Below are positions 1 through 60,833 of a DNA stretch of 64,000 nucleotides, in pieces. A model generated the notes under the pieces. The model searched no databases. It had not been told where the DNA came from and saw only the letters and a list, made by a program, of their open reading frames with translations. Location: NCBI RefSeq assembly GCF_024343775.1, contig NZ_RJUF01000182.1, positions 1-64,000 on the forward strand, written 5' to 3'. This DNA is from Lacihabitans soyangensis (GTDB lineage: Bacteria; Bacteroidota; Bacteroidia; Cytophagales; Spirosomataceae). Within the stretch, counting starts at the first letter, position 1. Every line of letters starts with the position of its first letter. The position numbers and the translations under genes were made by a program.

Positions 1-1856
1 CCCAACCTTCTCATCCGTAGTGATACTCTCCAAAACAAAAAAAGCGAACCTTTCGATTCGCTTTGTGACGACACCTTGTCGGCCACGTAGTGATCCAAAG
101 TCGGAAGCGACCCCTGCCCAACCTTCTCATCCGTAGTGATACGCTCCAAAATAAAAAAAGCGAACCGTTCGATTCGCTTTTTGATCGCACCTTGTCGGCC
201 ACGTAATGATCCAAAGTCGGAAGCGACCCCTGCCCAACCTTCTCATCCGTAGTGATACTCTCCAAAACAAAAAAAGCGAACCTTTCGATTCGCTTTGTGA
301 CGACACCTTGTCGGCCACGTAGTGATCCAAAGTCGGAAGCGACCCCTGCCCAACCTTCTCATCCGTAGTGATACGCTCCAAAATAAAAAAAGCGAACCGT
401 TCGATTCGCTTTTTGATCGCACCTTGTCGGCCACGTAATGATCCAAAGTCGGAAGCGACCCCTGCCCAACCTTCTCATCCGTAGTGATACTCTCCAAAAC
501 AAAAAAAGCGAACCTTTCGATTCGCTTTGTGACGACACCTTGTCGGCCACGTAGTGATCCAAAGTCGGAAGCGACCCCTGCCCAACCTTCTCATCCGTAG
601 TGATACGCTCCAAAATAAAAAAAGCGAACCGTTCGATTCGCTTTTTGATCGCACCTTGTCGGCCACGTAATGATCCAAAGTCGGAAGCGACCCCTGCCCA
701 ACCTTCTCATCCGTAGTGATACTCTCCAAAACAAAAAAAGCGAACCTTTCGATTCGCTTTGTGACGACACCTTGTCGGCCACGTAGTGATCCAAAGTCGG
801 AAGCGACCCCTGCCCAACCTTCTCATCCGTAGTGATACGCTCCAAAATAAAAAAAGCGAACCGTTCGATTCGCTTTTTGATCGCACCTTGTCGGCCACGT
901 AATGATCCAAAGTCGGAAGCGACCCCTGCCCAACCTTCTCATCCGTAGTGATACTCTCCAAAACAAAAAAAGCGAACCTTTCGATTCGCTTTGTGACGAC
1001 ACCTTGTCGGCCACGTAGTGATCCAAAGTCGGAAGCGACCCCTGCCCAACCTTCTCATCCGTAGTGATACGCTCCAAAATAAAAAAAGCGAACCGTTCGA
1101 TTCGCTTTTTGATCGCACCTTGTCGGCCACGTAATGATCCAAAGTCGGAAGCGACCCCTGCCCAACCTTCTCATCCGTAGTGATACTCTCCAAAACAAAA
1201 AAAGCGAACCTTTCGATTCGCTTTGTGACGACACCTTGTCGGCCACGTAGTGATCCAAAGTCGGAAGCGACCCCTGCCCAACCTTCTCATCCGTAGTGAT
1301 ACGCTCCAAAATAAAAAAAGCGAACCGTTCGATTCGCTTTTTGATCGCACCTTGTCGGCCACGTAATGATCCAAAGTCGGAAGCGACCCCTGCCCAACCT
1401 TCTCATCCGTAGTGATACTCTCCAAAACAAAAAAAGCGAACCTTTCGATTCGCTTTGTGACGACACCTTGTCGGCCACGTAGTGATCCAAAGTCGGAAGC
1501 GACCCCTGCCCAACCTTCTCATCCGTAGTGATACGCTCAAAAATAAAAAAAGCGAACCGTTCGATTCGCTTTTTGATCGCACCTTGTCGGCCACGTAATG
1601 ATCCAAAGTCGGAAGCGACCCCTGCCCAACCTTCTCATCCGTAGTGATACGCTCTAAAACAAAAAAAGCGAACCTTTCGATTCGCTTTGTGACGACACCT
1701 TGTCGGCCACGTAGTGATCCAAAGTCGGAAGCGACCCCTGCCCAACCTTCTCATCCGTAGTGATACGCTCCAAAATAAAAAAAGCGAACCGTTCGATTCG
1801 CTTTTTGATCGCACCTTGTCGGCCACGTAATGATCCAAAGTCGGAAGCGACCCCTG

Positions 1857-1973
1857 CCCAACCTTCATGTCTATAGTGAGACGCTTCAAAACAAAAAAAA
1901 GCGAACCTTTCGATTCGCTTTGTGACCGCACCTTGTCGGCCATGTAGTGATTCAAAGTCGGAAGCGACCCCTG
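1857..1973 (-). repeat. divergent 117-bp array unit, intermediate between repeat and tRNA
   Basis: This unit differs from its neighbours at many positions and has one extra A in the T-run of its hairpin. On the minus strand it keeps the tRNA-like TCTCA half of the anticodon stem, where other units have TATCA, and the tRNA-like end GCGGTCA. Its anticodon-loop triplet reads ATA rather than ACG. Sharing derived positions with the tRNA gene makes it look like an older, less homogenised copy and supports descent of the array from the tRNA-Arg gene. Confidence 0.85.
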
Positions 1974-2120
1974 CCCAACCTTCTCATCCGTAGTGATACG
2001 CTCCAAAACAAAAAAAGCGAACCTTTCGATTCGCTTTGTGACGGCACCTTGTCGGCCACGTAGTGATCCAAAGTCGGAAGCGACCCCTGCCCAACCTTCT
2101 CATCCGTAGTGATACGCTCT

Positions 2121-2153
2121 AAAACAAAAAAAGCGAACCTTTCGATTCGCTTT
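2121..2153 (-). terminator. intrinsic terminator of tRNA-Arg, the parent form of the array hairpins
   Basis: On the minus strand an 8-bp stem, AAAGCGAA with TTCGCTTT around an 8-base loop, is followed by TTTTTGTTTT. It starts one base after the tRNA discriminator position. The same hairpin recurs once in every upstream array unit, with the T-run on the same strand. Confidence 0.85.
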
Positions 2154-2154
2154 G

Positions 2155-2228
2155 TGACCGCGTAGGGATTCAAACCCCAAACCTTCTCATCCGTAGTGAG
2201 ACGCTCTATTCAGTTGAGCTACGCAGCC
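2155..2228 (-). tRNA. tRNA-Arg (anticodon ACG)
   Basis: The minus strand folds as a full cloverleaf of 74 nt: acceptor GGCTGCG/CGCGGTC with G-U pairs, D stem GCTC/GAGC, anticodon stem TCTCA/TGAGA with loop CTACGGA (ACG, U33, G37), variable loop AGGTT, T stem TGGGG/CCCTA with loop TTTGAAT, discriminator A. CCA is not encoded. A34 is expected to be deaminated to inosine to read CGU, CGC and CGA. Oddities: position 19 is A and position 56 is U, replacing the nearly invariant G19-C56 pair by a compatible A-U pair; 15/48 is also A-U. It has its own consensus promoter and lies just downstream of nuoK on the same strand. Confidence 0.92.
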
Positions 2229-2238
2229 AATTGGACTG

Positions 2239-2269
2239 CAAAAGTAGTGGTTTTCTTATGTATTCCAAA
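2239..2269 (-). promoter_or_regulatory. promoter of tRNA-Arg
   Basis: On the minus strand TTTG (2266-2269), a 19-base spacer and TACTTTTG (2239-2246) match the Bacteroidota primary-sigma consensus TTTG-N19-TAnnTTTG exactly. The tRNA 5' end is 10 bases past the -7 element. Confidence 0.85.
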
Positions 2270-2280
2270 AAAAATGTCAG

Positions 2281-2586
2281 TTAATTTTTCAATTCTGTTA
2301 GTTTTTCTGGGTTGATATTCTCGTAATATTTCTTTATTTTCAGGATAATTGCCAAGCCCACAGCTACTTCCGAAGCCGCAACTAGCATTATGAATAATGC
2401 AAAAATTTGACCCTGCTCTGGGATTTTATCAAATTTACTAAAGGCCACAAAGTTTATATTTACGGCATTTAGCATTAATTCCACACCCATAAGCATCAAA
2501 ATTAGATTTTTTTTGGTAACTATTACCGCAAATCCTATGGCAAACAATATGGCTGAAACAATAATATAGGGTGTTAAATTATTCAT
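2281..2586 (-). CDS. nuoK: NADH-quinone oxidoreductase subunit K
   Basis: Small integral membrane subunit of respiratory complex I (MrpC-like), part of the proton-pumping arm in the inner membrane. About 101 residues with three hydrophobic segments (roughly 5-21, 28-50, 61-83) and the family's conserved glutamate in MGVELMLNAVNINF, where the charged residue lies in the second helix. I chose the ATG at 2586 (MNNLTPYI) rather than an in-frame ATG nine codons earlier because it gives the standard NuoK length. It overlaps the end of nuoJ by 8 bases, which suggests translational coupling. The nuoL, M and N genes that usually follow are absent; the tRNA-Arg promoter starts 12 bases after the stop codon. 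Confidence 0.95.
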   Translation of the reverse strand: MNNLTPYIIVSAILFAIGFAVIVTKKNLILMLMGVELMLNAVNINFVAFSKFDKIPEQGQIFALFIMLVAASEVAVGLAIILKIKKYYENINPEKLTELKN

Positions 2587-3097
2587 CTTTTTTAGCAATA
2601 TAAGTGGCACCAATCAAGGCCATCAGCAATAACACACCAATAATCTCTAGTACCAAAACCGAGTCGGTCATTAAATTATATCCAAGGTTTTTGATGTGCT
2701 GTTGTGGTTTGAAACTGCTGGTGCTAAACTTTGACTCCAAAACCAAAAATGAGAGTAATAAAGACAAACTGACGGCTATGGTTAGACTAAAAACCATATC
2801 CATGTTCTCAATATTAAGCTTACCTTTTCCCATTTTTTTGTTGGAGCTTAGCATGATACCAAAAATAAGTAGTATCAATATGCCGCCTATGTAAATCATG
2901 ATTTGGGCAGCAGAAACAAACTCTCCACCAGCAAAAACAAATATACCCGCTACGCCCAAAAAGCTCACCAAAAGTCCATAGGATGCATATAAGACGTTTT
3001 TTGAAAACAAAACATACAATGCTCCGATAACTGCTATCAAACAAAATATACCAAATGCCACATTGCCATTTTGTAATTCCCTAAGTACTATTTCCAT
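2579..3097 (-). CDS. nuoJ: NADH-quinone oxidoreductase subunit J
   Basis: Membrane subunit of complex I, 172 residues with five hydrophobic helices. The third carries the family's glycine-rich stretch (MIYIGGILILLIFGIML, about 67-83), which contains the pi-bulge helix that couples quinone reduction to proton pumping in this family. It sits between nuoI and nuoK in the usual order: the start codon directly follows the nuoI stop and the end overlaps nuoK, so the three genes form one transcription unit. Length and topology are normal; nothing unusual was seen. Confidence 0.95.
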   Translation of the reverse strand: MEIVLRELQNGNVAFGIFCLIAVIGALYVLFSKNVLYASYGLLVSFLGVAGIFVFAGGEFVSAAQIMIYIGGILILLIFGIMLSSNKKMGKGKLNIENMDMVFSLTIAVSLSLLLSFLVLESKFSTSSFKPQQHIKNLGYNLMTDSVLVLEIIGVLLLMALIGATYIAKKDE

Positions 3098-4495
3098 TTA
3101 TGATTTTGGTTTAAGTTTAGGTACAAATTTGGCTGGACTTACTGGCGTTTCTATCCTTGCTTCAGCCTCATTAATTGAATCAATTGGGGTACTTTCGGTA
3201 ACTACGGGTTTGAGTTTAGGTACAAATCCAACAGGTTTTGGCGTTTCTCTCGTCTCATTGTTAGCAACTTCCGGTTTTATTTTTGGAATGAATGCCGACG
3301 GTTTATTTTCTGATGCAATTTGTTCTGGCTTTGCTTTCGGAACAAATTTTGGCTTGGCATTTTCAACATTTGGTACTGGTTGATAGACTGCCTCCGAAAC
3401 TACTTCTACTGGTTTTTTGGGAACGAATTTCGGTTTAGAATCACCATCTGATACTGAACTCACTGATTCGTCAGTAGCAATCACCGTCGGTTTTTTGGGA
3501 ACAAACTTAGGTTTCGTTTCTGCACCTGAATTTTCATTTGCTATTTCAACTGGCTTTTTAGGTAGAAATTTAGATTTTTCTGTTGGAGCAACATTTTCAG
3601 TCAGGATCTCTGAAGCACTTAACGGTTTCTTCGGAACAAACTTTGGTTTCGTATCTTCTGATTTAGCTTTAATCGCTTCTGCATTATCTGCTGCAGCCAT
3701 AATTGGCTTCTTAGGACTGAAAATTGGTTTTGGTTTATCAGCGGTTGATTGTTCTAGGTTTACTGGTGTTGATTCTGACTGAATAGGCTTTTTCGGAGCA
3801 AAAATTGGTTTTTTCACGGGTTCAACCTCCGTTTTTACTTGATCAGTCGCTGGTGGCTTAGGCTGAAATGCACTCGGTATTTTTGGTTTAAAAACAGAAT
3901 CTACCTCTGGATTGGGTGTTGCATCAGTTTTGGCCAATTTGGCTGCCTCTTTTTCGGCAACAAATTGCTCATAAAGATTTCTTTTTTCCTCAGCTTCTTT
4001 TTCTGATAAATTAGAGAAGGCCAAGTTTAAAAGATTGACATCTAGCACACTGTAGTCATACTCACTATTCATCGTAAGGCACTCGGTTGGGCAAACAGTG
4101 GTGCAAAGTCCACAAAAGCAACATTTGGCCAAGTCGATGTCGAATTTGGCCGCATGAAGTCTCACAGGAGAGCCATCTGAGGTGGTTCGGATCAATTCTG
4201 GCGACTTTATGGCTTCTATTTCGATACAATCTACCGGGCAGATTTTGGCACATTTATCACAAACTATACAGTCGTCAATCTCGCAATCTAACTGATATCT
4301 ACCGATTTCTGGAACAGAAATGCTTTCGTGGGGATACTGGAGCGTTACAAATCCTTCCGAAATTTTGAAATAATTTTCGTCCTGAACATTCAAGGCACCT
4401 TTGGTTTTTCTGGCTGCCCACAAATGCTTCAAGGTCAGACTTAAGCCCTTGGTGGTGGTTTTGATTCCTCTTTTTATGTTCTGAAAGAAGGCCAT
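3098..4495 (-). CDS. nuoI: NADH-quinone oxidoreductase subunit I with long repetitive C-terminal tail
   Basis: Subunit carrying clusters N6a and N6b, which pass electrons towards quinone at the membrane junction of complex I. Residues 1-190 are a normal NuoI: N-terminal amphipathic region, then two 4Fe-4S motifs with C76, C79, C82, C86 and C125, C128, C131, C135. I used the ATG at 4495 (MAFFQNIKRG), matching NuoI N-termini of related bacteria; an in-frame ATG lies six codons earlier. The remaining about 275 residues are unlike ordinary NuoI: low-complexity, rich in Lys, Pro, Ser, Thr and Glu, with about twelve copies of F-x-P-K-x-P or F-x-P-K-x-K-P spaced roughly 12-30 residues apart. The tail is predicted to be disordered and cytoplasmic; its role is unknown. 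There is no frameshift, and nuoJ follows at once. Confidence 0.93.
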   Translation of the reverse strand: MAFFQNIKRGIKTTTKGLSLTLKHLWAARKTKGALNVQDENYFKISEGFVTLQYPHESISVPEIGRYQLDCEIDDCIVCDKCAKICPVDCIEIEAIKSPELIRTTSDGSPVRLHAAKFDIDLAKCCFCGLCTTVCPTECLTMNSEYDYSVLDVNLLNLAFSNLSEKEAEEKRNLYEQFVAEKEAAKLAKTDATPNPEVDSVFKPKIPSAFQPKPPATDQVKTEVEPVKKPIFAPKKPIQSESTPVNLEQSTADKPKPIFSPKKPIMAAADNAEAIKAKSEDTKPKFVPKKPLSASEILTENVAPTEKSKFLPKKPVEIANENSGAETKPKFVPKKPTVIATDESVSSVSDGDSKPKFVPKKPVEVVSEAVYQPVPNVENAKPKFVPKAKPEQIASENKPSAFIPKIKPEVANNETRETPKPVGFVPKLKPVVTESTPIDSINEAEARIETPVSPAKFVPKLKPKS

Positions 4496-4530
4496 GTGCA
4501 AATATAGCTTCATTTTGAAACAATTTTAGT

Positions 4531-19145: not shown

Positions 19146-19741
19146 TTTTTAAATATATCTTTAATTTTCTCCTTTCTAATTTGATTATTCTCTTTTCGAA
19201 TTTTCTTTTTCTTGATTTTTGCCCTGCGGTTGAAAAGCTTTTTGAGCCCAATGAACAAGAATACCATGGCTACCACTGCAAACAAAACAGCAAGTTGGAG
19301 TAAAGCAGGCACAAACGCTAAAGCCGAGGCAATTAATAAAAATACAAGACCTATCTTTAAACTGTCATTAAAAACTGGATTCCGTTTAATTGGCTTCAAA
19401 TTAACTTTCTCGGTAGATTTTTCTGATATTGTAGTTTCACCGGCAATCTGACTTGTTTGTATTTTCGAGTTGTTTCTGATTCTATTGACACTTACAGGGT
19501 AATGTTTAATTTCCGACGCAAGACTTTCTATTCTAAGTTCGTTAGAATTGTTGGCTGTAACTTCTTCAAATTCGGGTCCTAGTTTTTCTGTTAAAATAGG
19601 ATTTTCAGATACAAGAGGCTGGCTAGCATTTCGAGTTTTTGTAGTGAATGTTTCTCGCGTAGATCGCTGAAAGCCGCCCATTTTTTTATGACATGAAAGT
19701 AGAGAGAGACAAAAAAGTACAAATAAGGTAAGTCTTAACAT
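19142..19741 (-). CDS. predicted lipoprotein with C-terminal membrane segments
   Basis: A 199-residue protein I cannot assign to a family. A type II signal is present (MLRLTLFVLFCLSLLSC, lipidation at about C17). The middle (20-125) is polar and Ser/Thr/Asn-rich, followed by a hydrophobic stretch of about 40 residues (two membrane passes) and an extremely Lys/Arg-rich C-terminus. A protein anchored by both a lipid and helices suggests envelope location. Coupled to the hydrolase gene. Confidence 0.65.
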   Translation of the reverse strand: MLRLTLFVLFCLSLLSCHKKMGGFQRSTRETFTTKTRNASQPLVSENPILTEKLGPEFEEVTANNSNELRIESLASEIKHYPVSVNRIRNNSKIQTSQIAGETTISEKSTEKVNLKPIKRNPVFNDSLKIGLVFLLIASALAFVPALLQLAVLFAVVAMVFLFIGLKKLFNRRAKIKKKKIRKENNQIRKEKIKDIFKK

Positions 19742-60683: not shown

Positions 60684-60721
60684 GATATAAATTTTGATTG
60701 AAAAAACGAAGAAAAAAAAAT

Positions 60722-60798
60722 GGCAAATTCACCGCTACAACCACCTACCCTTGCTACCTTCCGGTCCTGGGGGATTCAGCAGGAGCTGGTAATTTGCC
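60722..60798 (-). ncRNA. ffs: small bacterial signal recognition particle RNA (4.5S)
   Basis: The minus strand contains the SRP apical domain: CCAGGACCGGAAGGTAGCAA..GGGTAG-type core with the GGAAG tetraloop region and symmetric internal loop. Flanking arms pair as GGCAAATT with AATTTGCC, and a GTAGCGGTG segment matches ACCAGCTCC-side pairing. This RNA binds Ffh in the SRP that targets membrane proteins. The final stem plus a nine-T run (60711-60720) probably doubles as terminator. A consensus promoter lies directly upstream. Confidence 0.9.
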
Positions 60799-60802
60799 GT
60801 CA

Positions 60803-60833
60803 CAAAAGTACGAACTTTCTTCGGTTTGACAAA
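60803..60833 (-). promoter_or_regulatory. promoter of the SRP RNA gene
   Basis: On the minus strand TTTG (60830-60833), a 19-base spacer and TACTTTTG (60803-60810) match the Bacteroidota consensus perfectly; transcription should begin within a few bases of the RNA's GGCAAATT start. Confidence 0.85.

Follow-up and report, generated by a model that had tools for sequence, protein, structure and literature searches.

A tandem array of tRNA-Arg(ACG)-derived units with a conserved insert in Lacihabitans soyangensis

The window analyzed here comprises 64,000 nt of the freshwater bacterium Lacihabitans soyangensis (the source genome, G000; other G numbers denote relatives, C182 and C193 are contigs, and L numbers are loci cut out for analysis) and opens with the first base of contig C182. 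Read along the minus strand, nuoJ and nuoK are followed by a promoter, a tRNA-Arg(ACG) gene, its terminator and then 116-bp units that run up to the contig edge. The features of this region are as follows.

2239..2269, minus strand: Bacteroidota-type promoter of the tRNA, TTTG, 19 bases and TACTTTTG (exact pattern match)
2154..2228, minus strand: intact tRNA-Arg(ACG) (ARAGORN; Rfam RF00005, 56.1 bits)
2130..2153, minus strand: terminator hairpin of the tRNA, recurring in the units (terminator scan; no gap after the tRNA)
2005..2120, minus strand: first complete unit, made of D-stem 3′ strand, anticodon arm, insert, T-loop remnant, tail and terminator (unit listing)
2066..2092, minus strand: insert of the first unit, conserved among 16 aligned units of five species, with the consensus GGGCAGGGGTCGCTYCCGACTTTGAAT
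1..2153, minus strand: tandem array, 18.6 units of 116 bp (TRF, unit listing and second contig)
1..1538, minus strand: exact run of the 232-bp two-unit repeat, a recent expansion (comparison with the repeated dimer)

TRF on the window returned a period of 116 with 18.6 copies spanning 1-2158, and the tRNA was placed at 2154-2228 by both ARAGORN and Rfam, which bears out the first-pass annotation in its description of at least 18 tandem minus-strand units directly after tRNA-Arg(ACG). The 116-bp period given there stands, but two unit types alternate in the unit listing, so that most of the array is a 232-bp dimer, and the array goes on in a second contig. Being truncated at the end of C182, it resumes on C193:67387-69315 (L011 12388-14316) with 16.6 units and ends beside msrA. 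A genome pattern search placed the insert core without mismatch at 34 sites, 18 on C182 and 16 on C193. The two contigs combined hold 4082 bp of array, or 35.2 units, while exact overlaps of 217 to 1377 bp between their array ends are possible in six registers, of which the largest would leave 2705 bp, or ~23 units. The array as assembled thus totals about 23 to 35 units, with an exact copy number that is uncertain because both contigs end within exact repeats, and the assembler may have collapsed or expanded it. Unique unit forms were found at several places near the tRNA and once near the far end. These head-to-tail, near-identical copies with a higher-order structure make the array a tandem satellite repeat; the array is real, and the earlier observation of it is confirmed. 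An array this long was found only in the source genome among the genus members searched. A separate 21-bp short tandem repeat of slightly more than two copies lies at window 19160-19212.

The promoter scan used the Bacteroidota consensus. The match at 2239-2269 was the sole exact one in window 1-2600, the same scan detected no promoter pattern inside the array even when one mismatch was allowed, and neither of two promoter consensus scans placed a promoter in the array units. A terminator scan of window 1-2400 identified 19 hairpins, the tRNA's own included, all 19 of them on the minus strand (shuffle mean 3.1), which agrees with the earlier statement that each unit repeats the tRNA's terminator. 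On C193, the far end of the array borders the convergent msrA gene at its stop codon and terminator, and all 19 window terminators point toward this gene.

Each unit corresponds to the tRNA from the D-stem to the 3′ end plus the terminator, with the T-arm interrupted by an insert and with a tail that resembles the acceptor 3′ strand. The unit is 116 bp long in the source genome and ~93 to 112 bp in four relatives. Least decayed are the units of G008, in which the T-loop, the T-stem 3′ strand and the acceptor 3′ strand are intact; in the units of the source genome, the copied tRNA 3′ end is partly decayed. Aligned with the G003/G005 tRNA, which served as reference since the G008 contig carries no tRNA, a G008 unit could be followed from the D-stem to the last base, the T-arm region having 15 extra bases and the whole a single substitution. 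The "about 45 unrelated bases" reported earlier for each unit therefore hold true only in part: new sequence does exist, but it amounts to ~15 bases in the T-arm, and the rest is decayed T-arm, as the G008 units reveal.

To gauge the conservation of the unit parts, 16 unit forms from five genomes (G000, G002, G003, G005 and G008) were aligned, with the insert defined as columns 29-56. The mean between-species difference was 6.8% for the insert, 10.6% for the terminator, which is nearly as conserved, 21.1% for the D-stem and anticodon part, and 41.1% for the tail, the last serving as a neutral yardstick inside the unit with ~13 aligned, gapped columns in most pairs; all these figures sample one clade, and units of one genome are non-independent. 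When only the closest unit pair of each genome pair was taken, the differences were 3.0%, 4.6%, 15.1% and 26.2%, respectively. Inserts of one genome differed by 1.5 to 7.4%, a level similar to that between genomes, and tails of one genome by 5 to 31%. At four-fold sites of nine flanking genes (204 to 840 sites per comparison, genes missing from a contig dropping out), G000 differed from the four genomes with the same unit by 42 to 54% and all ten pairs by 25 to 54%, while msrA alone gave 24 to 55% among the five genomes. The 6.8% of the insert corresponds to about 2 of 27 sites, and the probability of two or fewer changes is ~1e-4 at 41% divergence and ~3e-6 at 50%. In several species the anticodon-arm palindrome has decayed and the insert has been kept. 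A decoy attachment site was rejected as the role of the unit, the palindrome and the crossover bases being less conserved than the insert.

Homogenization within an array leaves the between-species rate unlowered. Conversion, whether from the tRNA or from elsewhere, cannot hold the insert constant, because the tRNA itself has no insert and no near copy exists elsewhere: outside the array, the source genome contains no copy of the insert core within two mismatches, and within three mismatches there are four places versus two in the control. Recent exchange between species is disfavoured as well, because it would also have levelled the arms and tails. Being conserved relative to the tail and the four-fold sites, the insert therefore looks selected, and we infer that it is under purifying selection. 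What is new here is this far lower between-species divergence of the insert than of the tail or silent sites, which makes selection on it likely.

The first-pass annotation had also raised the array as a source of structured RNAs, which the folding results do not support. Without the terminator, 16 unit cores folded no better than their shuffles (mean z +0.20 for the tRNA strand and +0.28 for the opposite one). Six units with the terminator gave z from −0.55 to −1.96, which we attribute mostly to the hairpin. RNAalifold yielded no pair with changes on both sides among 17, and the helices named by hand yielded one among 11. One possible helix, between the D-stem strand and the insert, is paired in 90% of cells with one-sided changes only and no compensatory change, a pattern that is compatible with pairing but is not proof of it. 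A structured noncoding RNA would fold more stably than shuffled sequence and show compensatory changes, and the unit cores failed on these points; likewise, a structured tRNA mimic was unsupported by the shuffles, RNAalifold and the pair counts.

Several further roles were considered and dropped. In L011, open frames of 84-86 aa cross the array on the tRNA strand, but a repeat-coded peptide was rejected, since the period of 116 is not a multiple of three and the frames shift. By eye, no small tpr-like ORF was present in the unit, its ATG being lost in G005_2 and its frame being shifted by single-base indels. The units were also rejected as substrates of the tRNA-Arg deaminase TadA, whose recognition loop in tRNA-Arg is UACG, as the motif is lost in all three G003 units. 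No paired core sites of an integron attC were seen by eye. Sites resembling the insert core or its complement with at most two mismatches outside the arrays numbered 34, versus 55 in a reversed control, across five genomes, with no target seen among them. The source genome also has a REP-like repeat around GAGCGNAGTCGAA, often clustered, at L076 1300-1720 and other places, where GAGCGGAGTCGAA has 95 matches with at most one mismatch versus 3 in the reversed control. As a source of the insert this repeat was rejected, the copy read at one locus sharing only a few bases with it in an informal comparison.

A family search of 222 genomes, with the unit minus the tRNA 5′ half as query, matched 28 genomes, among which only G000, G002, G003, G005 and G008 had matches covering the insert; in the other 23, only the query's 3′ part around the terminator matched. 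The exact insert pattern, searched in one genome each of 84,980 species (a collection that possibly does not include the source genome itself), hit four stretches, those of G005, G003, G002 and G008, which are labelled, in this order, Lacihabitans sp. CS3-21, Lacihabitans sp. CCS-44 and, for two metagenome bins, Leadbetterella and Spirosoma fluviale. Neither this exact-pattern search nor the 222-genome family search placed the insert outside the genus Lacihabitans, and the exact pattern had no match in viral contigs. Unit copies numbered two in G005, three in G003, three in G002 and at least three in G008 (three inserts plus a cut unit at the contig end). In all five genomes, the units lie near a convergent msrA, at a distance of ~0.6 kb in G008.

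Local alignment downstream of the tRNA at 30 loci, each compared with the best of 200 shuffles, exceeded all shuffles at five, those of G000, G003, G005, G001 (z 9.1) and G007 (z 5.9); at the remaining 25 loci, three of which had <400 bases to search, it did not. Altogether, partial-tRNA units, homologous or similar, occur in six other Lacihabitans genomes. In four of them (G001, G003, G005 and G007) the units lie directly behind the same tRNA, in G002 other sequence occupies that place, and in G008 the contig stops inside the array. The tRNA origin proposed earlier is thus upheld by the relatives. The 77%-complete bin G002 carries other sequence with a repressor-like HTH_3 gene where the tRNA is expected (L045, G002:C46), followed by a short tRNA 3′ end and then by the units; we read this sequence as an integrated element, though it may reflect a misjoined contig. 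G001 has one unit and G007 has one plus a second, truncated one, and their inserts differ from that of the five-genome unit. The G007 units match the anticodon stem of their own tRNA save for one base, with a different insert in the same place. Both independent origins and conversion from the tRNA could account for the G001 and G007 units. Within the stretch searched, no msrA lies beyond the units of either genome. The tRNA stands without units in G004 and G006 and was not detected in G009. A candidate unit in genus g27 (G193, L065) was rejected, as its score lay inside the shuffle range. Two full tRNA-Arg(ACG) genes in tandem were seen in relatives at L065, L019, L029, L034 and L038, two of these being in genus g27 of the same family.

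Element-like regions also lie behind the same tRNA. In G004, a region behind it with a tyrosine integrase (L078 6541-7782) ends in a 50-bp tRNA copy from the anticodon stem to the 3′ end, and a further 34-bp copy lies ~21.6 kb beyond; similar partial copies were found in G025, G055 and G058. Across L049 and L078 (G004:C1:726000-755500), element-like genes are stacked, namely those for a tyrosine integrase, a DUF3871 protein and a D5_N/DUF5906 protein, together with the two partial tRNA copies. Within this family, elements thus leave truncated tRNA copies downstream of the gene, and a remnant of this kind may be where the units began. The five-genome units start in the D-stem, at tRNA position ~22-25, and the element-type copies at ~28-30, close to where the G007 units start. 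In the five-genome clade, the D-stem start and the copied terminator argue for plain tandem duplication, while G007 appears to fit an element origin better. The units resemble attR-type fragments of integrative elements, such as those of G004, in being partial tRNA copies that reach the 3′ end behind an intact tRNA, with the start at about the anticodon stem fitting in G007; they differ in being tandem and split by an insert, with no element between them. An integrase was present in G004, a genome without units, and an integrase domain in none of four flanking genes tested in G000.

Among known systems, the closest in layout are the E. coli tyrT/tyrV repeats with RtT (RttR) RNA and Tpr, which likewise stand in tandem directly behind a tRNA and each contain the tRNA 3′ end. 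At tyrT of E. coli K-12, we found 3.1 repeats of 178 bp, each with the last 19 bases of the tRNA 3′ end, and a short match to the T-arm 5′ side upstream of the insert, which is weak, 44 to 132 of 1000 shuffles being equally good. In both the E. coli and the Lacihabitans units, new sequence stands where the T-arm would continue upstream of the 3′ end, with the E. coli tRNA match beyond the insert being weak. Unlike the E. coli repeats, the Lacihabitans units have 116 instead of 178 bp, include the anticodon arm, carry a terminator each and are present in far more copies. The Rfam RtT model (RF00391) gave four matches of 132.9-137.5 bits on E. coli tyrT, one of them between two tRNA genes, but none at E up to 1 in L012 (the window region), L042, L043, L044, L045, L046 and L048, the loci scanned. 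The parallel with tyrT drawn earlier therefore applies to anatomy and not to sequence family: the Lacihabitans array is RtT-like by its anatomy and is not an RtT family member by the model.

A second point of comparison is 3′ETS-leuZ of E. coli, which is single copy and whose sequence, unlike that of the Lacihabitans units, is not known to be tRNA-derived. According to PMC8166272, this leuZ tRNA 3′ trailer acts as an sRNA sponge, and the likeness lies in a short RNA made from sequence downstream of a tRNA, the Lacihabitans RNA being putative. PMC4986893, citing Bosl and Kersten (1991), describes RtT as freed from tRNA transcripts and as modulating the stringent response. Bacterial higher-order tandem repeats share with the array a dimeric block multiplied at near-perfect identity and differing edge units, whereas the unit here derives from a tRNA and a terminator and holds a conserved insert. 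Among the matches listed in the open-access literature, none described this array or any tRNA-tail array in Bacteroidota, and passages of PMC9897764 add nothing on tandem copies.

Taking these results together, we tentatively favour a tRNA-tail repeat that would work like the E. coli RtT repeats, a reading we hold to be quite possible though short of probable. Behind the gene lie head-to-tail copies of a stretch of tRNA-Arg(ACG) that reaches from the D-stem to the terminator end, their T-arm interrupted by an insert, and in the source genome a two-unit block has multiplied, probably by unequal exchange or slippage. The units would be reached only by read-through from the tRNA promoter, and mainly the first units would give RNA. 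With a terminator closing the units and no promoter found in the array, RNA output is expected to drop sharply with distance from the tRNA. A conserved stretch ahead of a terminator is the usual layout of a base-pairing RNA. Each unit is laid out like a small regulatory RNA, with a conserved stretch without excess structure and then an intrinsic terminator. The first units may yield a short RNA that acts by base pairing or protein binding through the insert, and the distal copies would be passengers, the long array being most simply a by-product of exchange between repeats. In favour of this reading are the units kept near a convergent msrA in five genomes whose msrA differs at 24 to 55% of four-fold sites, the low divergence of the insert, the single exact promoter match at the tRNA and the 19 terminators on its strand; against it count the unit cores that fold like shuffles, the insert-like sites no more frequent than in the control, and the differing inserts of G001 and G007.

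This preferred reading has to be weighed against others. The array might be a functionless satellite that arose by chance partial duplication and grows and shrinks by slippage and unequal exchange, which we consider somewhat unlikely. The exact 232-bp higher-order repeat with differing units toward both edges, the range of copy number from one (G001) to ~23-35 (G000), the absence of a fold excess, the insert-complementary sites that do not exceed the control and the lack of units in G004 and G006 all suit it, but it leaves unexplained why the insert diverges so much less between species than the tail, the anticodon part and silent sites do, and why the units persist near msrA in five genomes. 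Selfish slippage, as suggested in the first-pass annotation, hence fits the expansion in the source genome and misfits the insert. It is unlikely, too, that the units are attachment-site leftovers of elements integrating in this tRNA, possibly multiplied with integrase help: G004 has its integrase region with the 50-bp and 34-bp copies, G025, G055 and G058 have similar ones, HTH_3-gene sequence takes the tRNA's place in G002, and the G007 units start near the element-type start, but in the five genomes the unit begins a little farther upstream, within the D-stem, and includes the terminator of the tRNA, the anticodon-arm palindrome has decayed in several species with the insert kept, and the four flanking G000 genes tested are devoid of integrase domains.

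That the stacked terminators buffer termination, keeping tRNA read-through from going antisense into convergent msrA, would be in keeping with 19 window terminators facing that gene, with the conservation of the terminator part (10.6%) and with the convergent msrA in G000, G002, G003, G005 and G008. We nevertheless regard it as improbable, given that the insert and not the terminator is the most conserved part, that a few terminators would suffice and that G001 and G007 have units with no msrA behind them in the stretch searched. Least credible, to the point of being very improbable, is a long array made by the assembler. Both contigs end in exact repeats with six exact overlap registers; against this, unique unit forms occur near the tRNA and once near the far end, and the same unit is present in four separately assembled relatives, so that the copy number may be wrong while the presence of the array is not in doubt.

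Beyond the RtT-like reading of this one locus, it is conceivable, though distinctly doubtful, that bacteria have repeatedly gained new tandem regulatory elements by duplicating part of a tRNA together with its terminator and then acquiring an insertion in the T-arm of the copy. Lacihabitans would have done so, possibly on two occasions (in the G000 clade and G007), and E. coli tyrT, judging from its units, would be a further instance. Genes arising in this way would borrow a strong tRNA promoter, come with a terminator of their own and multiply like a satellite. The E. coli tyrT repeats have long been an oddity, and the present array adds a second case from a different phylum, its new sequence being similarly placed within the tRNA copy. 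With unit numbers ranging from one to dozens among the species, the origin of such repeats becomes testable, the part that is kept (the insert) can be separated from the part that merely multiplies (the array), and the relatives offer a natural copy-number series for tandem terminators behind one tRNA.

Two other features of the window were recorded. At 3104-4513 on the minus strand lies a gene for a 470-aa protein, NuoI by position, whose 4Fe-4S domains end near residue 147, beyond which a repetitive extension of the KPKFVPKK type is apparent by eye; its identity is 53 to 78% in G001, G005 and G003. At 60718-60805, also on the minus strand, lies a small signal recognition particle RNA (Rfam RF04183, 67.8 bits).
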